Positions 15,439 to 25,915 of a stretch of DNA of 37,999 nt are shown here, piece after piece. The notes under the pieces are model-generated. The model worked only from the letters and a program-made list of their open reading frames with translations, did no database searches and was not told where the DNA came from. A program made the position numbers and the translations under genes. Each line of letters opens with the position of its first letter. Position 1 is the first letter of the stretch. Location of the stretch: NCBI GenBank assembly GCA_017962105.1, contig JAGCVY010000072.1, positions 1 through 37,999 of the forward strand, in the 5' to 3' direction. Origin of the DNA: Lachnospiraceae bacterium. Lineage in GTDB: Bacteria; Bacillota; Clostridia; Lachnospirales; Lachnospiraceae.

Positions 15439-15459
15439 ATACCTATTGACATAGTAGGT
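15439..15459 (+). promoter_or_regulatory. Operator copy 1, Rrf2/CymR-like box
   Basis: An imperfect palindrome with ACCTA and TAGGT arms around TTGACATAG. It covers the -35 of the rhodanese-fusion promoter. The same 21 bases occur at 16678-16698. The CC-n11-GG spacing resembles sites of Rrf2-family regulators such as IscR and CymR, which control cysteine and Fe-S genes. No Rrf2 gene lies in the window. Confidence 0.75.
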
Positions 15460-15474
15460 AAGTGCAGTTATTAT
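15446..15474 (+). promoter_or_regulatory. Promoter of the rhodanese-TusA-DsrE gene
   Basis: TTGACA (15446-15451), 17-bp spacer, TATTAT (15469-15474). The -35 is inside the operator box, so a bound protein would block polymerase. A second TATAAT at 15487-15492 has no matching -35. Confidence 0.8.
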
Positions 15475-15515
15475 AGTTCCCAATACTATAATCGCATTTG
15501 GAAAGGGATACATGT

Positions 15516-16619
15516 ATGGAAGAGGTCACATATAAAAACATTTCGGCTGAGGAATTTTCCGGTTTGGACTACGCAGGGGTAACACTGGTGGATCTGAGAG
15601 AGCCGGATGAGTTAATCGTCAGTGGAATAGAGGGAGCTGTTAACCTTCCGTTCAGTAGTTTCCCGAAAGGGATCGATGATATACCGAAGGATAAGCCGGT
15701 GTGTGTATTCTGCCGTGAAGGCAGTTTCAGTGAGGAGGTGGCTGAAATACTGGCAGACAGAGGATATGAGGTTTACAACCTGGTCGGGGGGTACAATGCG
15801 TACAGAAAGCCGGAAGAGAATAAAGACAGCAGTAAAGAGGAAAAGGAAGTCTTTATAAATGCGAAAGCATTGCGATGCCCGGGCCCGATTGTGAAAGTGG
15901 CTGATACACTGCGCAGTCTCCCTGAGAACAGCATAGTGAGAGTTGAAACGACAGAAGATGCTTTTTACTCGGATATTAAGGTCTGGACGCAGAGAACCGG
16001 CAATAAGCTGCTTTCTTTGGCTGCAGATAACGGAGTGATCACGGCAAGGATTCAGAAGAAAAGCAGAGCGGAAGGAAACGGAGGTTTGAACGGAGATCCC
16101 GGCTTTAATGCGGAAAATGGTACTCTGGGCGGGAAACACGTCCAACTTGGAGAAGATAAAACTTTTATTGTATTCAGCGGTGATCTTGATAAAACGATCG
16201 CTGCATTCATCATTGCAAACGGAGCCGCCAGTCTGGGACGAAATGTGACAATGTTTTTCACGTTCTGGGGACTGAACATTTTACGAAAAGCAAACCGGGT
16301 CAAAGTAAAGAAGAGTTTTATAGAGAAGATGTTCGGGTTTATGATGCCCAGAGGCAGCAAAAAACTAGGACTGTCACGCATGAATATGTGTGGTGCCGGG
16401 AGCAAAATGATACGCGGCATAATGAAGAGCAAAGGAATCTCTTCGCTGGAAGAACTGATGCAGGACGCGATCGATCATGGTGTCCGTCTGGTTGCATGTC
16501 AGATGAGTATGGATGTAATGGGAATCCGAAGGGAGGAGTTGATTGACGGCGTTGAACTCGGCGGAGTAGCTACATTCATCGGTGCCGGCGAGACTTCGGA
16601 CATCAGCCTGTTCATATAG
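15516..16619 (+). CDS. Rhodanese-TusA-DsrE triple-domain sulfurtransferase
   Basis: A persulfide relay in one 367-residue chain. Residues 6-97 are a rhodanese domain with catalytic Cys66 in the loop CREGS. Residues 112-182 are a TusA domain with the CPGP motif (Cys121). Residues 215-367 are a DsrE/DrsH-like domain with FSGDLDKTIAAFIIANGAAS and a conserved cysteine in ACQMSMDVMG. A flexible Gly/Asn-rich linker (185-212) joins the last two. The architecture is that of stand-alone versions of the C-terminal part of CoA-disulfide reductase-type enzymes. ATG 15516 has AAAGGG at 8 nt. The shared operator with the metY transcript places it in the same sulfur regulon. Confidence 0.92.
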   Translation: MEEVTYKNISAEEFSGLDYAGVTLVDLREPDELIVSGIEGAVNLPFSSFPKGIDDIPKDKPVCVFCREGSFSEEVAEILADRGYEVYNLVGGYNAYRKPEENKDSSKEEKEVFINAKALRCPGPIVKVADTLRSLPENSIVRVETTEDAFYSDIKVWTQRTGNKLLSLAADNGVITARIQKKSRAEGNGGLNGDPGFNAENGTLGGKHVQLGEDKTFIVFSGDLDKTIAAFIIANGAASLGRNVTMFFTFWGLNILRKANRVKVKKSFIEKMFGFMMPRGSKKLGLSRMNMCGAGSKMIRGIMKSKGISSLEELMQDAIDHGVRLVACQMSMDVMGIRREELIDGVELGGVATFIGAGETSDISLFI

Positions 16620-16677
16620 GGACAGGAAAACGAGCGTCTGATCGTTCGGGAAAATCCCATCTTTGAAAGTGTAATAA

Positions 16678-16698
16678 ATACCTATTGACATAGTAGGT
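16678..16698 (+). promoter_or_regulatory. Operator copy 2, Rrf2/CymR-like box
   Basis: Identical over 21 bases to the box at 15439-15459 and placed at the same position relative to the promoter, over TTGACA. Flanking sequence differs, so this is conserved as a site and not part of a longer duplication. Confidence 0.78.
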
Positions 16699-16713
16699 CA
16701 ATGGTGCTATAAT
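16685..16713 (+). promoter_or_regulatory. Promoter of the metY-encapsulin transcript
   Basis: TTGACA (16685-16690), 17-bp spacer, TATAAT (16708-16713): full consensus. Transcription should begin near 16720, only about 20 nt before the leader peptide start. Confidence 0.92.
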
Positions 16714-16741
16714 CGCACCAAATTGTAAAGGAGACGGCGAA

Positions 16742-16852
16742 ATGTTTGAGCAGCAGACAGCTTCAAAACGCAACATGTGTTGGCGAATGCGGTACACCCG
16801 GGCATATACTATGGCTGGGGCGTTTGAATGTCTGCGTTCGCGCCTCTCTTGA
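16742..16852 (+). CDS. Leader peptide ORF (36 codons) of a possible attenuator
   Basis: ATG 16742 has AAGGAG at 16728-16733. It encodes 36 residues with the central run MCWRMRYTRAYTM, containing Cys, Trp and several Met and Tyr codons, plus a second Cys at codon 30, and stops at TGA 16850. It sits between a consensus promoter and a terminator ahead of a sulfur amino acid gene. The segment CCCGGGCA (16797-16804) inside it is an exact complement of TGCCCGGG (16884-16891) in the 5' arm of the terminator. That is the arrangement of leader-peptide attenuation. Which amino acid is sensed cannot be decided; Cys or Met is suggested by context. Confidence 0.6.
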   Translation: MFEQQTASKRNMCWRMRYTRAYTMAGAFECLRSRLS

Positions 16853-16884
16853 GCAAACAAGAACAGATGACTCTGAAGCCATTT

Positions 16885-16921
16885 GCCCGGGAACGGAAAC
16901 AACCAGTTCCCGGGCTTTTTT
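16885..16921 (+). terminator. Attenuator terminator upstream of metY
   Basis: GCCCGGGAAC (16885-16894) pairs perfectly with GTTCCCGGGC (16906-16915), followed by T6. No promoter is seen between it and metY, so transcription of the whole downstream cluster must pass it. Confidence 0.92.
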
Positions 16922-16955
16922 CTGCCCGGAACAATAAACGGAGGGCATGAAAGAC

Positions 16956-18200
16956 ATGGAGACAGATTGTAATTTCGGAACAAAACTTTTACACGGAAAG
17001 GCAGTATCCGCCTATGGGGACAGGGCAATCCTCCCGCCGGTTCATCAGGTTTCTGCGTTTCGATATGAGAGTATGGAGGCCCTTGAAAGAGTTTTTGCCC
17101 ATAAGAACCCCGGATATGCCTACACGAGGATCGGTAATCCCACATTGTCTTCCTTCGAAGGACGGATCAATGAGTTGGAAGGCGGAAGCGGCGCAATCAG
17201 CTGCAGCAGCGGGATGGCGGCAATTTCTTCCGCACTCCTCGCGGTCTGTGAAAGCGGAGACGAAATTATAGCGGGGAGCGGTTTGTACGGTGGAACAGTT
17301 GATCTGCTTCATGATCTCGAAAAACTGGGTATCCACACTGTCTTTGCGGAAAAACTGGATGCCGCTGCGGTGAACACTCTTACCACGGACAGGACGAAAG
17401 TGGTCTTCGGAGAATTTGTCTCAAATCCGTCACTTGAAGTGTTGAACATTTCGGAGATCTCCGAGGCGGCACACGCGAAGGGTATTCCCCTCTTTGTGGA
17501 TGCAACCACGGTAACTCCGTACCTGGCCCGGCCGCTTTCACTCGGCGCGGATGTGGTGATCCATTCCACGTCAAAGTACATCAACGGCGGGGGAAACTCG
17601 ATTGGCGGAGTGATCGTGGACGGGGGGAAGTTCGCATGGAACATTTCCGTCCATACGGCGCTTCGGGGATATGAACGGTATGGGAAAATGGCCCTTCTCA
17701 TTCGCCTTCGAACCGATCTCTGGGAAAACATGGGGGCATGTATGGCACCAATGAATGCGTACCTCTCGAGCATCGGTTTGGACACGTTGGCAATTCGCAT
17801 GGAACGGATCTGTTCGAACGCCGACAGACTTGCACACGCGCTCGCCGGAATAGAGGGGATCAGCGTAAACTATCTGACGCTTCCGGATCATCCGTGTCAC
17901 GCTAAGGCGAAAACGTATTTCGATGGACGGGGAGGAGGCATCCTGACATTCCGGGCAGGAACGAAGGAGAGGGCATTTTCCGTGATCAATAAGCTGCGAT
18001 ATGCCCTCATCGCGAGCAATATCGGCGATATCCGGACTCTTGTGATCCATCCTGCATCTACGTTGTATCGAAAGCTGGACAGCAAAACACGGGAAGCCGC
18101 AGGGGTTTATGAGGATACGGTTCGTGTGAGCGTCGGGATTGAGGATGTCGAGGATTTGATCGCGGATTTCAGAGCCGCGATAGAAGGAGCAGGCCGATGA
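16956..18200 (+). CDS. metY: O-acetylhomoserine sulfhydrylase family PLP enzyme
   Basis: Predicted to add a sulfur nucleophile to O-acetylhomoserine, giving homocysteine or a carrier-homocysteine adduct. Fold-type I Cys/Met metabolism PLP family. AYTRIGNPTLSSFEGRINELEGG near residue 50 and SCSSGMAAISSALL near 80 shape the active site and bind the PLP phosphate. FVDATTVTPYL holds the pyridine-binding Asp, and HSTSKYINGGGNSIGG near 205 holds the PLP lysine. Length about 414 aa is normal for MetY. ATG 16956 is preferred because GGAGGG (16940-16945) is only 1 nt from ATG 16947. The stop overlaps the JAMM gene (ATGA). In Wolinella succinogenes MetY works with a thiocarboxylated carrier, a JAMM protease and an E1, as found here. 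A cystathionine gamma-synthase role cannot be excluded. Confidence 0.88.
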   Translation: METDCNFGTKLLHGKAVSAYGDRAILPPVHQVSAFRYESMEALERVFAHKNPGYAYTRIGNPTLSSFEGRINELEGGSGAISCSSGMAAISSALLAVCESGDEIIAGSGLYGGTVDLLHDLEKLGIHTVFAEKLDAAAVNTLTTDRTKVVFGEFVSNPSLEVLNISEISEAAHAKGIPLFVDATTVTPYLARPLSLGADVVIHSTSKYINGGGNSIGGVIVDGGKFAWNISVHTALRGYERYGKMALLIRLRTDLWENMGACMAPMNAYLSSIGLDTLAIRMERICSNADRLAHALAGIEGISVNYLTLPDHPCHAKAKTYFDGRGGGILTFRAGTKERAFSVINKLRYALIASNIGDIRTLVIHPASTLYRKLDSKTREAAGVYEDTVRVSVGIEDVEDLIADFRAAIEGAGR

Positions 18201-18640
18201 GTACGATTCAGATTACTTCGGAGTGTTTGCAGAGGATCCGAATCCATTCTGAATTGATGTATCCAAACGAAGGATGCGGGCTTTTGTTTAGTGAGGAACA
18301 GAACTCCGACGAGAGAGTTCTCTTAGGCAGTGCGGTTGGGATTATCAACCGGAAGGAAAGCGAGACAGCGAGGAAAGCATATCTCATCAGTCCACGTGAT
18401 CTGATCAGAGCGGAGACGGAATACCGAAGAAAAGGAGTCTTGATATCGGGAATTTTTCATTCTCATCCGGATAAGCCGGCGGTTCCGTCCGAAGAAGACG
18501 GAAACTGGATGATCCCCGGAATTGTCTACGGGATTCTCCCGGTGTACGGCGGAACTGCGGGAAATATACGGTTTTGGATGAAACGATCGGCAGACGAAAA
18601 GCCGACTGAATTATTCGCGGAAGCGCAGAAGAAGGAGTGA
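18197..18640 (+). CDS. JAMM/Mov34 metalloprotease 1 (Mec+/HcyD-like)
   Basis: 147-residue zinc isopeptidase-like protease. The JAMM motif is complete: Glu25 (NEGCGLL), His88 and His90 (FHSHP), Ser98 and Asp101, with the exact H-x-H-x7-S-x2-D spacing. Bacterial relatives either release an amino acid from a sulfur carrier adduct (Mec+) or trim carrier C-termini to expose Gly-Gly (HcyD). It overlaps metY and lies 10 bp before a gene whose sulfur carrier domain has its Gly-Gly buried inside a fusion. So cutting that fusion is an attractive role, by inference. AGAAGGAG precedes the ATG. Confidence 0.9.
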   Translation: MSTIQITSECLQRIRIHSELMYPNEGCGLLFSEEQNSDERVLLGSAVGIINRKESETARKAYLISPRDLIRAETEYRRKGVLISGIFHSHPDKPAVPSEEDGNWMIPGIVYGILPVYGGTAGNIRFWMKRSADEKPTELFAEAQKKE

Positions 18641-18650
18641 AGACAAAACG

Positions 18651-20111
18651 ATGAAGGTGATCATTTCCGCAACATTGCGGTATTTCTTCGGACATACTGT
18701 CGAGGAGGAGATACAGGGCGATACAATCAATGAAGTGCTTGCAAATCTGATCCGGAAGTATCCGGAAGCAAAAAAAGGTTTGTATGACGAATCGGGGCAA
18801 TTGCGCGAGTTCATAAGGATTTTTCTGAACGACAGTGATGTGACGGAGGAGGCTGAACGCCTTAAGACAAGAATCCCGGAAGGTGCAACATTACAGCTCC
18901 TTCCGCTGATTGCCGGAGGAGCTCCAGAGGACAGCTTGATTTCGGAGGAAAGAAGAAAGGCAGTTAACTTCGACGACCGTGATATTGAGCGGTTCAACAA
19001 ACATTTGCTGCTGCGGGAAATCGGTGTTAAGGGGCAGAAAAGAATTCGCGCAGCCAAGGTCGTTGTAGTCGGCGCGGGAGCCCTTGGTTCTGCAGTGATA
19101 CAGTATCTGGCTGCTGCAGGAGTGGGAACGATCAAGATCATTGACTTTGATGAGGTGTCAGTCGGGAATCTGCAAAGTCAGGTGATACACAGCCTCCGTG
19201 ATGTAAAGAGGCCCAAGGCAGCGTCTGCAAAGGATACGGTTCGTAACATTGACCGCAATATTGAGGTTATCGCGGAAAATAAAAAACTGGATGCCGAAAA
19301 TGCAGAAGAGTTGATCGAGGGGTTTGATCTTGTGATAGATTGTACAGACAACTATCCGGCTCGATATATCCTTAACGATGCATGTATATTAAACGGAATT
19401 CCGGTGGTATACGGTGCTATCTATCAATTTGAGGGTATTGTCACTGTCTTCGGATATCGGGATGGGCCGTGTCTTCGGTGTGTTTTTCCGGCACCTCCTT
19501 CACCCGGGCTGGTTCCGACTTGTGCGGAGGGAGGGACCATCAGTCCCCTGGCGGGAATTGTCGGAAGCCTTCAGACAAGTGAGGCATTGAAACTGATCAT
19601 GGGAATCGGCGAGCATCTGAGCGGCAGGCTTCTCACTGTAGATACACTCGGACTGCATTCCGGTATTCGAAAAATCCATCATAATTGCTCCTGTCCGCTT
19701 TGCGGGGACAATCCGGTCATCAGCGAGGTAAGTGATTTCGATTACGAAGAACTTTGCGGATTGAAGGAGAATGATGAGGAAACACCGATTGAAGGATTAA
19801 CGCCGGAAGAACTGGCGCATCGCATTGAAAATCAAGATCCCATGACTATCATCGATGTCAGAGAACCTCACGAAAGGGCGCTGCAGTATTTTCTGGGAGC
19901 GATACCGATACCGATCGGCCAGCTCGCAAGGCGAAAGAAGGAGTTGAATCCGGATGTGGATACAATAATTATCTGCAGGGAGGGAAAGAGGAGCATCCTT
20001 GCGATAAATACGCTTCGGGAAGCGGGGTATCAGGGCCCTCTCTATAACCTGAAAGGCGGAGTGAATGCAATGAAGGATATCGTTTTCTCCATAGAAAGCG
20101 GTCGACTGTAA
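18651..20111 (+). CDS. Sulfur carrier-E1 (MoeB/ThiF-like)-rhodanese fusion
   Basis: 486 aa in three domains. Residues 1-90 are a MoaD/CysO-like ubiquitin-fold carrier ending IAGG (Gly89-Gly90). Residues 107-365 are an E1-like adenylyltransferase with GAGALG (141-146), zinc cysteines 274/277 and 348/351, a catalytic-type Cys291 and Asp233 (DCTDN). Residues 383-486 are a rhodanese with Cys442 in CREGKRS. Two residues are unusual: Lys117 stands where E. coli MoeB has Arg14, and Ser176 (NLQSQ) where it has Arg73, both ATP-contacting. The carrier's Gly-Gly is followed directly by Ala-Pro-Glu-Asp, so it needs cleavage to be activated. The RBS is weak (GGAGTGA), 10 bp after the JAMM stop. Confidence 0.9.
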   Translation: MKVIISATLRYFFGHTVEEEIQGDTINEVLANLIRKYPEAKKGLYDESGQLREFIRIFLNDSDVTEEAERLKTRIPEGATLQLLPLIAGGAPEDSLISEERRKAVNFDDRDIERFNKHLLLREIGVKGQKRIRAAKVVVVGAGALGSAVIQYLAAAGVGTIKIIDFDEVSVGNLQSQVIHSLRDVKRPKAASAKDTVRNIDRNIEVIAENKKLDAENAEELIEGFDLVIDCTDNYPARYILNDACILNGIPVVYGAIYQFEGIVTVFGYRDGPCLRCVFPAPPSPGLVPTCAEGGTISPLAGIVGSLQTSEALKLIMGIGEHLSGRLLTVDTLGLHSGIRKIHHNCSCPLCGDNPVISEVSDFDYEELCGLKENDEETPIEGLTPEELAHRIENQDPMTIIDVREPHERALQYFLGAIPIPIGQLARRKKELNPDVDTIIICREGKRSILAINTLREAGYQGPLYNLKGGVNAMKDIVFSIESGRL

Positions 20112-20191
20112 GAAATCTGTTTAACATCAAAACGTGACATGACTCGAAAGAGTACCAGATAAATGTCAAAAAAAGAAAAGGAGTGAAGCCA

Positions 20192-21145
20192 ATGGCCAAA
20201 GAAACTGAAAAAACAGGGATAAATGCACTCGGCGCAGCCGCAGCATATAATCTCGCCAATGTCACAAAGACCAAGCCCCAGTATGGTGCACTGACACCGA
20301 AGTGGTTGACAAAATTCCTTGAGTTCAAGGGATTGGAAACGGGTATCTTCCGTGTAAACAAAGTTGTGGAGGGAGAGACTCCGCTGGACGTGCTCTGCAG
20401 CCAGACCAAGAAGTCCGATATTATTCCGGACGGATATGTGGAGTATGAAACTGAACCGAGAGAGTACAGACTGAATTCGATCTCTACAATCATCAATGTG
20501 AATACCGCCATTGAGGATGTATACAGTGTTCCGTATGATCAGGTTCAGGAGCAGCTCGGGCTGGCCATCGAATCTCTCAGAGAACGTCAGGAAAGCCAGT
20601 TGATCAACAACGACGATTACGGTCTTTTAAAGAACATCGCGGATTCCCAGAGAATTCAAACGAGAAACGGTGCTCCGACGCCGGACGATCTTGATGAGCT
20701 GATCTCGAAGGTATGGAAGGAGCCGTCCTTCTTCCTTGCGCATCCGAGAGCGATTGCCGCATTCGAGAGAGAATGCACGAGACGCGGAGTTCCGCCGGTT
20801 GTGGTTAATATTGCGGGTGGTACGTTCCTTACATGGAGAGGCATTCCGATTGTACCGACGGACAAATTGCTGGTAGACGGTTTAAAGAACCCGACTTCAC
20901 AGAGCGGTAAGACCAACATCCTGCTGATTCGTACAGGTGAGGCAAAACGCGGTGTGATCGGATTGTTCCAGGCTGGATTAAAGAATGAACATTCCAGAGG
21001 CCTTTCCGTACGTTTCCGTGGAATCGATGACAAGGGAGTTGCTTCTTACCTGCTGTCTCTGTACTGCTCGGCTGCCATTCTTGCTGATGATGCCATTGCG
21101 GTTTTGGAAGACGTGGAGGTAGGTGAATACTATGACTACGATTGA
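20192..21145 (+). CDS. Family 2A encapsulin shell protein
   Basis: 317-residue HK97-fold protein expected to assemble into a hollow protein shell holding a cysteine desulfurase. Diagnostic family 2 stretches are the N-terminal arm with NVTKTKPQYGALTPKWL, then YVEYETEPREYRLNSISTII near residue 90, and VPYDQVQEQLGLAIESLRERQE near 115. In the A-domain, FFLAHPRAIAAFERECTRRGVPP and GGTFLTWRGIPIVPTDKL follow. It lacks a cyclic-nucleotide-binding insertion, so it is family 2A and not 2B. ATG 20192 has AAGGAG at 20177-20182. The gene overlaps the desulfurase start by 14 nt, implying coupled synthesis of shell and cargo. No phage portal, protease or tail gene is near, which argues against a prophage capsid. 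Confidence 0.93.
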   Translation: MAKETEKTGINALGAAAAYNLANVTKTKPQYGALTPKWLTKFLEFKGLETGIFRVNKVVEGETPLDVLCSQTKKSDIIPDGYVEYETEPREYRLNSISTIINVNTAIEDVYSVPYDQVQEQLGLAIESLRERQESQLINNDDYGLLKNIADSQRIQTRNGAPTPDDLDELISKVWKEPSFFLAHPRAIAAFERECTRRGVPPVVVNIAGGTFLTWRGIPIVPTDKLLVDGLKNPTSQSGKTNILLIRTGEAKRGVIGLFQAGLKNEHSRGLSVRFRGIDDKGVASYLLSLYCSAAILADDAIAVLEDVEVGEYYDYD

Positions 21146-22778
21146 ACAGTTGGCAGGAGTGCCAAGTGCGTCGGAACTCACCGAACTGGCGAATGAACTG
21201 TTCCCGGACCTGACAGAGGGCATCTTTACAGCGCCGGAAACTCCGAACACAGCTGTTCCTGAGGTAAATGCATCTCGCGAGTTTGATTGGGAGCATCCCT
21301 TTGCATATGGCGGAAACAGTTCGGATCCGTTTTTGAGTACGGTGGAAGCAGTCAGTGAACCGGACAGCGTTTTTCTGCCGGGCGGAGGAGATATCCCCGA
21401 AGTATCGACTGCGAACAACACTTCGTATGCGCCTGTCGTTCTGTCCCGTTCTCAAGCGGAAGAAAGCGGAAGAAAGATCGATGCACCGACATCCCTCGGA
21501 GGAGATGCGGTTAACCGGGACGGAGGAGGAAGCGCAAGCGACTCTTCCCGGAACGATTCAATTCGGATCGGGAGCAAAACACTGGCGCAGATCCGAGGGG
21601 ATTTTCCGATCCTTTCAGAACAGATTAACGGACACCCGCTGGTCTGGCTTGACAACGGCGCGACGACACAGCGTCCGCAGGCAGTTATCGACAGGCTGAA
21701 ATACTATTATGAGCATGAGAATTCCAATGTTCATCGTGGAGCTCATACCCTTGCAGCCAGATCGACGGACGCTTATGAAGGCGCAAGAGATATCGTCCGT
21801 GACTTCATCGGAGCACCCAGCTCGGAGGAAATCATTTTTGTCAGAGGAACCACAGAAGGCATTAATCTGGTGGCAAACGCGTACGTGAAACCGACGCTTC
21901 AACCCGGTGACGAGATTATCGTTTCCATCCTGGAGCATCACGCCAATATTGTGCCATGGCAGCTGATCGCTCAGGAAACAGGTGCGGTGATCAAGGTGAT
22001 TCCGTGTGATGAGACCGGTCAGCTTCTGCTGCACGAGTACGAAAAACTCTTTACGAAGAAGACAAAGTTCGTTGCCTGTACACATGTATCTAACGTTTTG
22101 GGAACGGTGACGCCTGTGGCGGAACTGATTGCCATTGCGCATCGGCACGGCGTAAGGATACTGATTGACGGAGCTCAGTCGGTTGCCCATATTCCGATCA
22201 GTGTGAGTGCTCTGGATGCGGATTTCTTCGTGTTTTCCGGGCATAAGATCTTTGCACCGACAGGGATTGGTGCGGTATACGGGAAGAAAGAATTGCTGGA
22301 GGTTGCAAGACCTTATCACGGAGGCGGGAACATGATCGCTGATGTGACGTTTGAGCGAACAATATACAACCCAATCCCGAACAAGTTTGAGGCAGGAACG
22401 GGAAGTATTGCGGATGCCGTCGGGCTCGGTGCTGCTCTCACTTATCTCACGGAAATCGGAATGCCTTGCGTATACCGATGGGAGCATGAGCTGTTGCAGT
22501 ACGCAATGAAAGAAATGAAGAGCGTTAAGGGGCTTCATCTGATCGGTACGGCATTGAATAAGTCTTCAGCACTTTCCTTCAAGCTGGATGGCTATTCTGA
22601 CGATGAGGTCGGTAAGCGGCTTGACAGTTATGGAATTGCAGTTCGGACGGGGCATCACTGCGCTCAGCCGGTATTGCGTCGTTTCGGGTATGAAGGTTCT
22701 GTGCGACCGACCATCGCGCTTTACAATTCGCCGGATGATATCGATGCGCTTGTTAAAGTATTGAAGACGTTTGCTTAA
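21132..22778 (+). CDS. Cysteine desulfurase, encapsulin cargo, with disordered N-terminal domain
   Basis: 548 aa. Residues about 1-145 are low-complexity and rich in Ser, Gly, Pro and Glu, with a few hydrophobic patches (ELTELANELFPDL, FDWEHPFAYGG, DSVFLPGGGDIPEV). These match the kind of targeting domain that loads this enzyme into family 2A shells. Residues 150-548 are a SufS-type group II desulfurase: LDNGATTQRPQAVID, NVHRGAHTL, SILEHHANIVPWQ, PLP lysine Lys372 (FSGHKIFAPTG) and catalytic Cys510 (RTGHHCAQPVL). It converts cysteine to alanine and enzyme persulfide. ATG 21132 follows GGAGGTAGG. A stem structure separates it from the serine acetyltransferase. Confidence 0.94.
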   Translation: MTTIEQLAGVPSASELTELANELFPDLTEGIFTAPETPNTAVPEVNASREFDWEHPFAYGGNSSDPFLSTVEAVSEPDSVFLPGGGDIPEVSTANNTSYAPVVLSRSQAEESGRKIDAPTSLGGDAVNRDGGGSASDSSRNDSIRIGSKTLAQIRGDFPILSEQINGHPLVWLDNGATTQRPQAVIDRLKYYYEHENSNVHRGAHTLAARSTDAYEGARDIVRDFIGAPSSEEIIFVRGTTEGINLVANAYVKPTLQPGDEIIVSILEHHANIVPWQLIAQETGAVIKVIPCDETGQLLLHEYEKLFTKKTKFVACTHVSNVLGTVTPVAELIAIAHRHGVRILIDGAQSVAHIPISVSALDADFFVFSGHKIFAPTGIGAVYGKKELLEVARPYHGGGNMIADVTFERTIYNPIPNKFEAGTGSIADAVGLGAALTYLTEIGMPCVYRWEHELLQYAMKEMKSVKGLHLIGTALNKSSALSFKLDGYSDDEVGKRLDSYGIAVRTGHHCAQPVLRRFGYEGSVRPTIALYNSPDDIDALVKVLKTFA

Positions 22779-22795
22779 CGATTTATCCGCGTAGG

Positions 22796-22860
22796 ATCCC
22801 GATCTGACGGAGAGTGAATCGCCGGAAAATGCACCGGCGTTTCTTCGGGAAGATCGGGAT
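22796..22860 (+). other. Nested RNA hairpin between desulfurase and serine acetyltransferase
   Basis: ATCCCGATCT (22796-22805) pairs perfectly with AGATCGGGAT (22851-22860). Inside, CGCCGG (22820-22825) pairs with CCGGCG (22834-22839). There is no U tract. It could stabilise or process the mRNA to alter the ratio of shell and cargo to downstream enzymes. Confidence 0.6.
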
Positions 22861-22895
22861 TTCGAAGCGGAACAACCCCTTAGCAGAGGAATGAC

Positions 22896-23855
22896 ATGAA
22901 GGATATTATCCGAAAAGAAGAGATAAACGATATCGTCAATACAATTTTTGACGATTTTGAGGGCGGAAAGATTATTGATGAGATTTCTGTTTTCAACAAA
23001 CCGGACAAAGCCGCGGTATATGAGTTGATTGAAAATCTGTTCGCAATCATCTATCCCGGTTTTTATCGGGAGCGTGCATATAAGACCTATAATCCCCATA
23101 GCAATCTTGCGGTGATTATAGAGGATGTGTTTTATCATCTGCACCAGCAGGTTTTTCTTGCACTGGATTATTGCAAACTCCGAGGTATGATGACTGAGGA
23201 GGAGAGAACTCTTGAGAGTTACCGCATATGCAAGGCTTTTTTCAGAAGAGTACCGATAATACGGGAATTTCTCGAAACGGATCTCAAGGCATTTTACGAG
23301 GGTGATCCGGCTGCCGGGTGCTTTGAGGAAATCATCTTTGCGTATCCGGGGCTTACAGCAATCACAATCTATCGAATTGCGCATGAGCTGTATCTGGAAA
23401 GAGTTCCGGTTCTGCCCCGGCTTATGACGGAGTACGCTCATTCCAAAACAGGAATCGATATACATCCCGGTGCAACCATCGACAGGAGTTTCTTTATCGA
23501 TCATGGAACGGGTATTGTAATCGGAGAAACATCCGTGATCGGTAAGAATGTGAAGATATATCAGGGCGTGACTCTCGGAGCCCTCTCCACAAGAGGCGGG
23601 CAGAAACTTGCCGGAAAAAAACGGCATCCTACAATCTGCGACAATGTTACCATCTATGCGGGAGCTTCCATCTTAGGCGGTGATACGGTAATCGGTGAAA
23701 ATACTGTTATCGGCGGAAACGCATTTATTACAAAATCCATTGATGCGAATACAAGGGTAAGTATGAAGAATCTGGAGATGGAATACAAGACAACCGGAAA
23801 TGAAAGAAGGCGCGAGGAACTCGAACAGAGCGAAGAATGGTATTACATCATTTAG
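22896..23855 (+). CDS. cysE: Serine O-acetyltransferase, EpsC/CysE type
   Basis: Predicted to make O-acetylserine from serine and acetyl-CoA, the precursor for cysteine. An N-terminal helical domain of about 180 residues is followed by a left-handed beta-helix of hexapeptide repeats. The active-site histidine is in GIDIHPGATID (His190), with FFIDHGTGIVIGE next to it and the glycine-rich loop KIYQGVTLGALSTRG binding CoA. Length 319 aa fits EpsC-type enzymes. CAGAGGAATG precedes the start. Placement directly after an encapsulin and its desulfurase is the known family 2A gene order, so it may refill cysteine for the shell enzyme. A short acidic tail ends EEWYYII. Confidence 0.93.
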   Translation: MKDIIRKEEINDIVNTIFDDFEGGKIIDEISVFNKPDKAAVYELIENLFAIIYPGFYRERAYKTYNPHSNLAVIIEDVFYHLHQQVFLALDYCKLRGMMTEEERTLESYRICKAFFRRVPIIREFLETDLKAFYEGDPAAGCFEEIIFAYPGLTAITIYRIAHELYLERVPVLPRLMTEYAHSKTGIDIHPGATIDRSFFIDHGTGIVIGETSVIGKNVKIYQGVTLGALSTRGGQKLAGKKRHPTICDNVTIYAGASILGGDTVIGENTVIGGNAFITKSIDANTRVSMKNLEMEYKTTGNERRREELEQSEEWYYII

Positions 23856-23891
23856 CGCTGAAAAAAGATATAGAACAGGGAGACATAAGAC

Positions 23892-24098
23892 ATGAAGATT
23901 ACAGTTGCAGGAGAACAAAAGGAAGTAGCGGATGGACTGAGCATAGCGGAACTGATCGTTTTGGAAAACGTTGAGACTCCGGAGTATGTTACGGTTTCCG
24001 TGAACGAGGAATTTGTCAATTCGGATTCCTTTGAATCGCTTATTCTGAAGGAAGGCGATGTCGTTGAGTTTTTGTACTTTATGGGAGGCGGAAGATAA
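23892..24098 (+). CDS. ThiS/MoaD-like sulfur carrier protein
   Basis: 68-residue ubiquitin-fold carrier. VTVSVNEEFVNSDSFESLILKEGDVVEFLYFM is the typical ThiS core, with the Asn-x-Glu turn and the glycine tail. The tail reads MGGGR, so the di-glycine that must be adenylated is followed by Arg68. Carriers of the HcyS type also carry an extra residue that a JAMM protease removes, and a JAMM gene is two genes downstream. The stop overlaps the ATG of the E1 gene. AACAGGGAG lies upstream. Role in thiamine synthesis is less likely because no other thi gene is present. Confidence 0.88.
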   Translation: MKITVAGEQKEVADGLSIAELIVLENVETPEYVTVSVNEEFVNSDSFESLILKEGDVVEFLYFMGGGR

Positions 24099-24907
24099 TG
24101 GCGTTTACGAATGAACAGTTGGAACGATATTCCAGACACATCATTTTAAAAGAGATCGGCGTAAAGGGACAGAAGAAACTGTTGAACTCCAAAGTGCTGA
24201 TTATCGGTGCAGGAGGACTCGGTGCACCGGCAGCCATGTATCTTGCAGCAGCCGGGGTTGGGACCATCGGAATTGCAGATGCGGATGTCGTTGATCTCTC
24301 TAACCTTCAACGTCAGATTATCCATACTACTCCCGATATCGGAAAGAATAAGGTTGACTCTGCAGCGGAAACCATGCGGGCAATCAATCCGGATATCACT
24401 GTAAATACGTATCATGAGTTTGTCAGCAGTGAGAATATTCTGGATCTGATCAAGGATTACGATTTCATTCTGGACGGTACCGACAATTTTCCAGCGAAGT
24501 TCCTGATTAACGATGCCTGTGTTATGACGGGAAAACCCTTCAGTCACGCGGGAATTATTCGTTTTAAGGGACAGCTCACAACCATAATTCCGGGAGAAAG
24601 TCCCTGTTACCGGTGTATCTTCAAAAACCCGCCCCCGAAGGATGCGGTGCCGACGTGTAAGCAGGCCGGTGTTATCGGAGCGATGGGAGGCGTGATCGGT
24701 TCCCTTCAGGCGATGGAAGCCGTGAAGTACCTGACCGGTGTGGGTGACCTGTTAGTCGGGTATCTTCTCACCTATGACGCGCTCAAGATGGAGTTTCACA
24801 AGATTAAACTGCCGGCAAGAGGAAAAGGTTGTGCGGTCTGCTCCGATACCCCTACGATCACGGAACTGATCGACTACGAGCAGGCGGCATGTGATCTGAA
24901 ATTATAA
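24098..24907 (+). CDS. E1-like adenylyltransferase (MoeB/ThiF/HcyF type)
   Basis: 269 aa. Predicted to adenylate the carrier's C-terminus before sulfur transfer. All MoeB key residues are in place: Arg13 (RYSRHIIL), GAGGLG (37-42), Arg72 (NLQRQ) and Asp129 (DGTDN). The zinc cysteines are Cys170/Cys173 (CYRC) and Cys245/Cys248 (CAVC), and Cys187 (PTCKQAG) is at the crossover loop. So this copy looks fully competent, unlike the fused copy at 18651. It overlaps the carrier by one base and precedes the second JAMM gene by 17 bp. Confidence 0.92.
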   Translation: MAFTNEQLERYSRHIILKEIGVKGQKKLLNSKVLIIGAGGLGAPAAMYLAAAGVGTIGIADADVVDLSNLQRQIIHTTPDIGKNKVDSAAETMRAINPDITVNTYHEFVSSENILDLIKDYDFILDGTDNFPAKFLINDACVMTGKPFSHAGIIRFKGQLTTIIPGESPCYRCIFKNPPPKDAVPTCKQAGVIGAMGGVIGSLQAMEAVKYLTGVGDLLVGYLLTYDALKMEFHKIKLPARGKGCAVCSDTPTITELIDYEQAACDLKL

Positions 24908-24924
24908 GTGCATGGAGAGTGAGT

Positions 24925-25371
24925 ATGCTGATTACGATCAAACAGGCGGATTTTGACCGGATTTACGAACACGCGCTTGCGGAGCGTCCGAACGAGGCTT
25001 GCGGTCTGATTGCAGGGCATGATACGGAAAATGGAGTCCGTGTTATCGAGAAGGTTTATCTTCTGACGAATATCGATCATACGAACGAGCATTTTTCAAT
25101 CGATCCGAGAGAGCAGCTTGCGGCGATCAAAGATATGCGGACCAACGGACTGAAGCCTTTGGGAAACTGGCATTCACATCCGGAGTCCCCGTCAAGACCT
25201 TCCGAGGAGGACAAGCGTCTTGCTAATGACAGCAGGGCAAGTTACCTGATCCTGTCTCTCATGGAAGAGAAACCGGTTCTGAATGCGTTTCATATTGAGT
25301 CGTCTGAAGATGGGAAAACCGTACGTAAAGAAGAGTTAGAAATCCGCGGAGAAGATTCGGCGGAAGAATAG
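24925..25371 (+). CDS. JAMM/Mov34 metalloprotease 2 (Mec+/HcyD-like)
   Basis: 148 aa. Complete JAMM motif: Glu24 (NEACGLI), His83, His85, Ser93 and Asp96 (WHSHPESPSRPSEED), with the same spacing as copy 1. ATG 24925 is preferred over GTG 24919 because GGAGAG (24914-24919) then has a 5-nt spacing. It follows a carrier ending GGGR and its E1, so it may remove the terminal Arg, release the finished amino acid from the carrier, or do both. It is a closer match to classical Mec+ than copy 1 because of the EACGL context. Soluble, no signal peptide. Confidence 0.9.
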   Translation: MLITIKQADFDRIYEHALAERPNEACGLIAGHDTENGVRVIEKVYLLTNIDHTNEHFSIDPREQLAAIKDMRTNGLKPLGNWHSHPESPSRPSEEDKRLANDSRASYLILSLMEEKPVLNAFHIESSEDGKTVRKEELEIRGEDSAEE

Positions 25372-25381
25372 GAGATTGACA

Positions 25382-25627
25382 ATGGCAGATTATGTAGTGA
25401 CGGACAAGGTTGATATTACAGACGTGAAATGCCCGATCACCTTTGTAAAGGCAAAAGTGGCTCTGGATGAACTGGATGACGGTCAGATCCTGCAGATTCA
25501 CATCAATGACGGTGAGCCGATTAAGAATGTTCCGCGAAGCCTTAAGGAGGAGGGACACGAGATTCTCGGACTCGAGGATAACGGAGACGGAACATTTGAG
25601 TTATATGTCAGAAAAGTCGGTGTCTGA
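25382..25627 (+). CDS. TusA-like sulfurtransferase (CPIT variant)
   Basis: 81 aa, single TusA-like domain passing persulfide sulfur between proteins. The catalytic cysteine is Cys17 in VKCPITFVKAKVAL. The usual second proline of CPxP is Thr here, a variant common in clostridial sulfur-carrier clusters. GEPIKNVPRSLKEEGHEI near residue 46 is the conserved second half. It lies 10 bp after the second JAMM gene with GGAG close to the ATG. It probably accepts sulfur from the desulfurase or rhodanese for loading onto the ThiS-like carrier. Confidence 0.88.
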   Translation: MADYVVTDKVDITDVKCPITFVKAKVALDELDDGQILQIHINDGEPIKNVPRSLKEEGHEILGLEDNGDGTFELYVRKVGV

Positions 25628-25666
25628 TCCGGCGGGATAGGTTTCTGAAAGAAAAGGAGTGGTTGT

Positions 25667-25915
25667 ATGGCACTTAGATTCCGCAGTGAGGAATTCGATC
25701 AGGAGGTTCTTGAGAGCGACATTCCCGTTCTGGTAGATTTTTATGCTGACTGGTGCGGTCCGTGTAAAATGATGGCTCCGATCATCGATAAGCTTTCCGA
25801 GGAGTTTGCGGGAAGGGTGAAAATCGGAAAGCGGTGTGACCCATCGGGGCAAAGTGGGAGAGCCGATCGTAGAATCGACTCTTCTTTTTTTATGATTCAT
25901 CTTGACACTGTTTAG
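25667..25915 (+). pseudogene. trxA: Thioredoxin, C-terminally truncated
   Basis: The first 55 residues are a normal thioredoxin start: [23 protein letters not shown] with the WCGPC redox motif at 29-33. After VKIGK (codon 55, about 25831) the sequence becomes unrelated and Arg/Ser-rich. The frame then runs through a terminator and stops inside the next promoter. Thioredoxins are about 105 residues, so half the fold is missing, including the cis-Pro loop. GAAAAGGAGTGG precedes the ATG. A fragment retaining the CxxC could be made but should not fold normally. Confidence 0.85.
25857..25891 (+). terminator. Terminator at the end of the sulfur island
   Basis: AGAGCCGAT (25859-25867) pairs with ATCGACTCT (25874-25882) with one mismatch, followed by a T7 run. 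It lies inside the broken thioredoxin frame. Confidence 0.8.

Follow-up and report, generated by a model that had tools for sequence, protein, structure and literature searches.

A conserved gene cluster joins a family 2A encapsulin to two JAMM-linked sulfur-carrier modules in a rumen-type Lachnospiraceae bacterium

In the present work, we analysed a stretch of 37,999 nucleotides from a Lachnospiraceae bacterium (assembly GCA_017962105.1, contig JAGCVY010000072.1; hereafter the window), in which the genes for a family 2A encapsulin shell and its neighbouring cysteine desulfurase stand between two modules encoding ubiquitin-like sulfur carriers, E1 enzymes and JAMM proteases. The cluster is real and conserved and, as a combination, undescribed in the literature searched, whereas the carrier modules taken singly are known classes from 2006. 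In our judgement, the chances are about even that these genes form one co-regulated sulfur-limitation operon, in which sulfur from the desulfurase reaches JAMM-matured thiocarboxylate carriers via a rhodanese fused to one of the E1 enzymes. The host is a rumen-type bacterium, and the window is one contig of its 2.59 Mb assembly, which is 96% complete.

Scanning with Pfam and NCBIfam profiles, with start codons picked by Shine-Dalgarno sequences, revealed ten overlapping or narrowly spaced genes on the forward strand (16947-25627). The series starts with a pyridoxal phosphate-dependent enzyme of the MetY type (16947-18200), whose best family is TIGR01326 (392 bits, below the cut-off of 495), followed by the Prok-JAB metalloprotease JAMM1, which carries a complete motif (18197-18640; Pfam). 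The third gene encodes a MoaD/ThiS carrier ending in LIAGG, an E1 (ThiF) and a rhodanese in one chain, here called SFR (18651-20111; Pfam). Next come the shell protein (20192-21145), the SufS-type desulfurase (21132-22778; 529.7 bits against TIGR01979 sufS, cut-off 475) and a serine O-acetyltransferase-like protein (22896-23855), which stays below the cut-off for cysE (168 versus 210.65 bits) and above that for EpsC (155.7 versus 150 bits). An outer module closes the series, comprising a ThiS-type carrier ending in GGGR (23892-24098), an E1 (ThiF/MoeB) without rhodanese (24098-24907), a second Prok-JAB metalloprotease, JAMM2 (24919-25371; Pfam), and a stand-alone TusA recognized by profile match (25382-25627). 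A sequence-only reading of the window had named all of these genes, together with a rhodanese-TusA-DsrE fusion, as a shell unit between two sets of carrier, E1 and JAMM protease, and every gene named is supported by Pfam or NCBIfam. Both sets are present; the first carrier, however, is no separate gene but part of the fusion with E1 and rhodanese. Genes, motifs, fusions and gene order can be read directly from the DNA, as can the operator boxes, the anatomy of the attenuator and the co-location described below. In the whole assembly, all profile matches to TusA (2/2), Prok-JAB (2/2) and ThiS/MoaD (2/2; E up to 0.001) fall inside the cluster region. This co-location of carriers, JAMMs and TusAs, together with the kept gene order, is more than chance.

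To describe the conservation of the cluster, we used 20 loci from the order (19 genomes), six from the phylum and 80 close ones, and counted in each case the loci with enough flank. A shell match is present in 20/392 order genomes (17 above cut-off) and 7/398 phylum genomes, own genome included; among the 20, G098 and G139 appear to resemble 2B shells and a contig end truncates G249, and all were kept. The 80 close loci were taken from the top of 495 confirmed ones and thus represent close relatives and no random sample, with a few genomes occurring twice (e.g. L027/L069, L024/L129, L026/L078). The desulfurase lies 3' of the shell in 76/76 close, 14/14 order and 6/6 phylum loci. SFR is found within 2.5 kb 5' of the shell in 70/70, 13/17 and 1/5 loci, respectively, and JAMM1 within 3 kb 5' in 67/70, 13/17 and 0/5. 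The complete outer set of ThiS, E1 and JAMM2 is present within 9.5 kb in 31/39 close loci, 28 of these 31 also containing TusA, as compared to 2/10 order and 0/3 phylum loci; the full gene order of the window occurs in 25/39, 0/10 and 0/3. Because of these counts, we regard JAMM1-SFR-shell-desulfurase, the inner module, as the conserved part, which the looser outer module joins mainly in the close set. A JAMM above cut-off occurs in 15/20 shell genomes of the order sample versus 51/372 others (Fisher 4.6e-9, which ignores kinship).

A plasmid of Aliarcobacter cibarius provides an independent case of carrier-shell linkage. It encodes, in this order, a cysteine synthase, JAMM, MoaD, E1, rhodanese, shell, desulfurase, serine acetyltransferase and a further cysteine synthase. 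Carrier, E1 and rhodanese are separate genes and precede the shell in the same order as in the window, with two insertion sequence (IS) elements and a small hypothetical gene interposed. One IS element lies between JAMM and MoaD, the other between E1 and rhodanese (L143 4457-8593). Plasmids of Synechococcus, Azospirillum and Variovorax, which together with that of Aliarcobacter make up the four records inspected of 32 matching, encode shell and desulfurase, and no carrier genes are annotated within 6 kb in these three. Among the loci compared, a cysteine-synthase-like gene is located directly 5' of JAMM1 in nine loci from at least eight genomes.

The shell protein scores 489.5 bits against the family 2A model (encap_f2a; cut-off 380) and 380.3 bits against the 2B model, below the cut-off of 400; the only domain that Pfam finds in it is SrpI-like, with no cNMP-binding domain. 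Thus, the window holds a shell above the encap_f2a cut-off and an adjoining SufS-type desulfurase with a long N-terminal region, the features by which a family 2A operon is recognized. Against the NCBI encapsulin-cargo model NF041166, the desulfurase reaches 771 bits, under the cut-off of 800, the first 224 positions of the model remaining outside the best match. Its N-terminal region of ~145 residues is variable in 78 sequences, save for the islands MTTiE..G.PsA.eL..LAN.lFPDL, FdwehPF and sY.P.V.S, and a stretch resembling these islands was seen by eye in the Azospirillum and Variovorax cargo. We infer that this region acts as a cargo domain or loading signal.

On average, the shell is 95% identical to that of the window (80 loci), and four-fold degenerate sites agree in 34%, which points to purifying selection on the protein. 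The stand-alone E1 is 90% identical to that of the window (57 loci), JAMM1 only 36% (68 loci). Clusters of similar kind are also found on contigs labelled Fibrobacter and Ruminobacter, both metagenome-assembled genomes (MAGs), and in an isolate of Treponema zioleckii (L110, L112, L119, L137), and on account of these labels, which are unverified, the system may extend over more than one phylum in the rumen. Recent transfer was considered as the cause of the 89-97% shell identity across Lachnospiraceae, the MAGs labelled Fibrobacter and Ruminobacter and the Treponema isolate. For the set taken together it was rejected because agreement at four-fold sites, 34% as a whole-set average, is like that of other genes.

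The ends of the carriers suggest a maturation step. All ThiS-type carrier frames continue with at least one residue behind GG (67/67), 36 of them as GGG-R, and a bare GG end occurs in none (0/67). Likewise, 87 of the 92 SFR frames of at least 400 amino acids contain the carrier end [IV]AGG inside the fusion. As the stand-alone carriers bear extra residues and the GG of the fused carrier is internal, each JAMM has an obvious candidate substrate. A carrier with a C-terminal extension reportedly also belongs to the homocysteine pathway of Wolinella described by Krishnamoorthy and Begley in 2011, where the JAMM protein HcyD is said to mature the carrier. In an alignment of 36 of the 86 available SFR sequences, P85, A88, G89, G90 and the rhodanese residue C442 are invariant. 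An AlphaFold2 model of SFR (mean predicted local distance difference test (pLDDT) 78.7, predicted template modelling score 0.61) matches best the folds of Uba4, MoeB-MoaD and ThiF. Residues 87-91 are modelled below pLDDT 50, as would be expected of a flexible, cuttable joint, low confidence being weak evidence. A strict JAMM pattern written for this analysis fits 67/86 JAMM1 and 59/61 JAMM2 frames, and the HxH core is kept in the eight inspected of the 19 JAMM1 frames that the pattern misses. In four loci (L058, L063, L064, L065), JAMM2 and TusA are fused to a single protein.

Upstream of the cluster, two features suggest control by sulfur supply, and both, the shared palindromic operator and the putative Cys-codon attenuator, are new in this analysis. 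The window contains two copies of the palindromic box ACCTA-N9-TAGGT (0.02 expected). One of them, ACCTATTGACATAGTAGGT, overlies a promoter-like TTGACA-17-TATTAT sequence 5' of the rhodanese-TusA-DsrE fusion (15441-15474, forward strand); the same operator (16680-16713, forward strand) covers a promoter-like TTGACA-17-TATAAT sequence ahead of the MetY-to-TusA genes. This sequence is a perfect 12/12 match to a sigma-70-type promoter (16685-16713), and after it no forward-strand site reaches 11 or 12 matches until 25902, past the cluster. With spacers of 7-9 allowed, 47 boxes were found in 81 loci, 46 of them within 700 bases 5' of a gene of the set, as compared to a mean of 2.3 and a maximum of 6 in 20 shuffles, which preserve base pairs only roughly. 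A further box in the own genome (G000 C101) has NifS/NifU-like genes on one side and, on the other, a gene judged by eye to encode an Rrf2-type regulator; a repressor acting at the operator would probably be of the Rrf2 type.

Between operator box and MetY follows a leader with a Shine-Dalgarno sequence and a peptide of 36 codons (16742-16852, forward strand; MFEQQTASKRNMCWRM...), in which a Cys codon precedes Trp and an invariant CGA (Arg) codon, and then the segments B, C, D, E and F. Each of the 22 aligned leaders has a Cys codon at most three codons ahead of CGA, and peptide motifs such as M-C-(C/W)-R-M recur in Lachnospiraceae attenuators. The RNA (model R1; 16764-16920, forward strand) can form an antiterminator B:E, an inner hairpin C:D and an intrinsic terminator E:F. 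B:E is paired in 93.5% and C:D in 87.2% of the alignment cells from which the structure itself was derived, and 8/12 pairs of these helices are changed on both sides, which is reached by 1/500 shuffles. Support for E:F is weaker, with 82.6% paired and 4/10 pairs so changed, matched by 89/500 shuffles. This layout suggests a ribosome-controlled attenuator: a ribosome stalled at the Cys codons would leave B free to hold E, allowing transcription to continue, whereas otherwise E:F would terminate.

Model R1 detects 26 places (E < 1e-7) in 94 sources, 24 of which are in, or near-copies of, its training set; 17 of the 25 places examined are directly before a cluster. It also matches 20/120 genomes of the family (27 places, L147-L173), where the weakest matches may be false. 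Such matches precede genes for MetY, a cystathionine enzyme, MetN-like and solute-binding proteins, and some precede genes without sulfur link, e.g. for an SDR or a PepT-like peptidase. In one family genome, R1 stands before a nitrogenase-like protein (NifE/NifD-like, below cut-off; L170 1-1449). Scanning of the window with Rfam 15 yielded no match above the gathering score (best sub-threshold E 0.088), and the literature searched gave only other leaders for Cys-codon leader peptides and, for Lachnospiraceae leaders, papers that are unrelated by title.

A working model can be drawn from these data. Upon sulfur shortage, release of a repressor and ribosome stalling at the leader Cys codons would turn the operon on. 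The desulfurase, predicted to reside inside the assembled 2A shell, would move cysteine sulfur into a pool of persulfide or sulfane sulfur in or at the shell, from where the rhodanese of SFR could take it. The E1 of the same polypeptide would adenylate and thiocarboxylate the MoaD-type carrier after JAMM1 has freed its GG end. What in other 2A operons is a rhodanese partner forms here one chain with E1 and carrier, and for this reason we propose that the desulfurase feeds carrier thiocarboxylation. In a parallel route, TusA would serve the rhodanese-less E1, and ThiS would be charged once JAMM2 has trimmed the residue or residues behind GGG, TusA-E1-ThiS representing a second outlet toward homocysteine. 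MetY would use the protein-bound sulfur for homocysteine, and probably a cysteine synthase, with acetylserine from the serine acetyltransferase, for cysteine. The JAMMs would thus act twice, maturing the carriers at first and releasing the product from the carrier later. TusA-like proteins had been proposed in the sequence-only reading as donors for both carriers, which finds no backing here, as the inner E1 is fused to a rhodanese of its own and TusA accompanies the rhodanese-less E1.

More tentatively, the shell, which is virus-derived, may be a sulfur bank: cysteine sulfur would be stored there in zero-valent form and withdrawn through SFR as protein thiocarboxylates when Cys-tRNA is short. 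Cysteine and homocysteine would then be made with no free sulfide involved and, in genomes like this one, with no sulfite reductase detected. Control by Cys shortage would fit spending of a store, not its filling, in agreement with the induction under sulfate deprivation seen in Synechococcus elongatus. If this holds true, a virus-derived organelle would be linked to ubiquitin-like chemistry, and the attenuator, if real, would provide a readable switch in vivo.

Several observations weigh against this model of sulfur flow. Induction of a cysteine desulfurase by Cys shortage is a paradox, except where the sulfur being spent is stored or foreign, and the enzyme may provide sulfur for Fe-S clusters or for other purposes. 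The remaining five of the 92 SFR frames stem from order loci in which the inner carrier is a separate gene. JAMM1 is missing in 3/70 close, 4/17 order and 5/5 phylum loci, and the serine acetyltransferase is found within 6.5 kb 3' of the shell in 44/52, 7/14 and 0/4. The outer module is mobile and absent within 9.5 kb in 8/39 close, 8/10 order and 3/3 phylum loci. Hence unrelated positions in relatives, which the sequence-only reading had named as a sign of chance, are not seen for the inner module in close relatives and in 13/17 order loci, and are seen in part for the outer module; at the phylum level, SFR too is lacking in 4/5. The attenuator lies directly before just 17 clusters among 74 cluster-bearing sources examined, in 59 of which the upstream sequence spans at least 4.4 kb. 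The MetY of the window is closer to those of separate outer modules (46-56%) than to other MetY-like copies in the loci (31-39%, and 21% for a partial one) and may therefore serve ThiS alone. Finally, two cysKM-type synthases above cut-off are encoded elsewhere in the genome, and cysteine synthesis from free sulfide may accordingly also run.

Sulfite reductase belongs in the same balance. In the own assembly, a profile search found no NIR_SIR sulfite reductase. SIR matches within the loci were left uncounted, as they include 4Fe-4S false positives, the one in the window being an EFR1 ferredoxin. Genomes with the window-type cluster contain the reductase in 11/30 cases versus 15/20 for the others (Fisher 0.010, which ignores kinship), a comparison that covers 50 of 78 intended genomes of unknown completeness, with types assigned by eye beforehand. 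The order sample runs the opposite way, with 16/20 shell-bearing genomes versus 155/372 others, and the idea of the shell as a replacement for sulfite reductase was dropped.

The association of the shell with sulfite reductase in the order sample would also suit a different explanation, in which storage shell and thiocarboxylate pathway are two separate sulfur-shortage devices that share an operon through regulation only and pass no sulfur directly. Neighbourhood and shared control fit such independent devices as well: the outer module moves or goes missing, and both regulatory elements are also found before genes of the MetY-like and cysteine-synthase-like kinds that are remote from a shell, so that co-regulation alone can explain the neighbourhood. 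However, SFR, its own rhodanese included, sits directly 5' of the shell in 70/70 close and 13/17 order loci, and the same order recurs on the Aliarcobacter plasmid; we consider this explanation somewhat doubtful, if the most serious of the alternatives.

Two further proposals appear improbable. According to one, the carriers are ubiquitin-like tags and the JAMMs de-conjugating proteases, so that shell or desulfurase would be modified and no amino acid made. Conjugation was indeed suggested for JAB-linked E1s in sections of Iyer et al. (PMC1779556), and the JAMMs show a weak likeness to desampylase (NF041370; 33.5 and 75.8 bits against a cut-off of 130), the two E1s one to SAMP E1 (297 and 330 bits, cut-off 450). 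Yet all these scores stay under their cut-offs, a Pfam scan of the ten proteins found no E2-like domain, and the metabolic neighbours, i.e. MetY, serine acetyltransferase and the cysteine synthase of relatives, fit sulfur transfer. The other, marginally less probable still, assigns the outer ThiS-E1 pair to thiamine (thiazole) synthesis, its presence being an accident of operon building. The assembly yielded no other stand-alone ThiS, and this one scores 64.7 bits against the equivalog TIGR01683 (cut-off 37.45), so that such a role is possible and a further point against the sulfur-flow model. Residues follow its GG, however, as in all 67 carriers, JAMM2 and usually TusA adjoin it, and classical thiamine operons are reported without JAB in the relevant section of PMC1779556.

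Two neighbouring genes flank the cluster. The Rhodanese-TusA-DrsE_2 fusion (15516-16619, forward strand; Pfam/NCBIfam) had been counted as part of the system but proves an occasional neighbour, being near the shell in 5/39 close, 0/10 order and 0/3 phylum loci, or in 11/106 loci with any flank. A remnant-like thioredoxin fragment closes the region (25667-25915), its homology stopping at residue 55 of 82.

The window shares features with several known systems. Like the SrpI-CyD system and 2A operons, as portrayed in parts of PMC8049743 and PMC8346489, it combines a shell, a desulfurase with a long N-terminal extension, a serine acetyltransferase and a rhodanese. The pertinent passages of PMC8346489 rank rhodaneses and serine acetyltransferases highest in enrichment among the accessories of 2A desulfurase operons and propose a shell-docking rhodanese as taker of the sulfur, and those of PMC8049743 report that the family 2A system SrpI-CyD of S. 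elongatus is raised under sulfate deprivation. Unlike the window, S. elongatus has a free rhodanese, and within 6 kb of srpI its annotation lists neither a JAMM nor a carrier nor an E1; the main texts of PMC8049743 and PMC8346489 nowhere use the words ubiquitin, MoeB, ThiF or JAB. As acceptor of sulfur from encapsulated desulfurases, the 2021 survey, in these passages, only suggested a shell-docking rhodanese (PMC8346489), for which SFR is now a concrete candidate protein. Sulfur storage by such shells is attributed to Benisch 2024 in a passage of PMC12407261. The leader resembles uORFC-8-2 before cysS in Rhodobacterales, a short Cys-codon leader peptide plus terminator (PMC8632094, in part), and the Cys-codon leader peptides of actinobacterial cys operons (PMC1262725, in part), and differs from both, as far as these excerpts go, in sequence, bacteria and genes.

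The sequence-only reading knew of no description of the full combination. No description of both carrier modules united around an encapsulin was found in the open-licence literature searched, whereas the modules as such have been in print since Iyer, Burroughs and Aravind (2006), whose pertinent sections describe them as class 4b/4c and class 4e (PMC1779556). With its MoaD carrier, E1 fused to rhodanese and adjoining JAMM, the inner module is like class 4b/4c and the CysM-Mec-CysO system of Mycobacterium tuberculosis with MoeZR, where Mec frees the carrier-bound product (PMC1779556, PMC3227635, both in part). It departs from class 4b/4c in the fusion of carrier and E1 and in the attached shell unit, and has MetY in place of the class 4c cysteine synthase, which is present in nine other loci. 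Sections of PMC3227635 call the sulfur source of CysO-type pathways unknown; if our model is true, the encapsulated desulfurase would offer one. The outer module is like class 4e in its ThiS-type carrier, JAB, rhodanese-less E1, SirA/TusA and enzyme of the OAH-sulfhydrylase type (PMC1779556, in part), with the caveat that the MetY of the window lies beyond the shell and below the TIGR01326 cut-off. Unlike class 4e and the Wolinella module, it belongs to a genome in which no sulfite reductase was found and is linked to an encapsulin.

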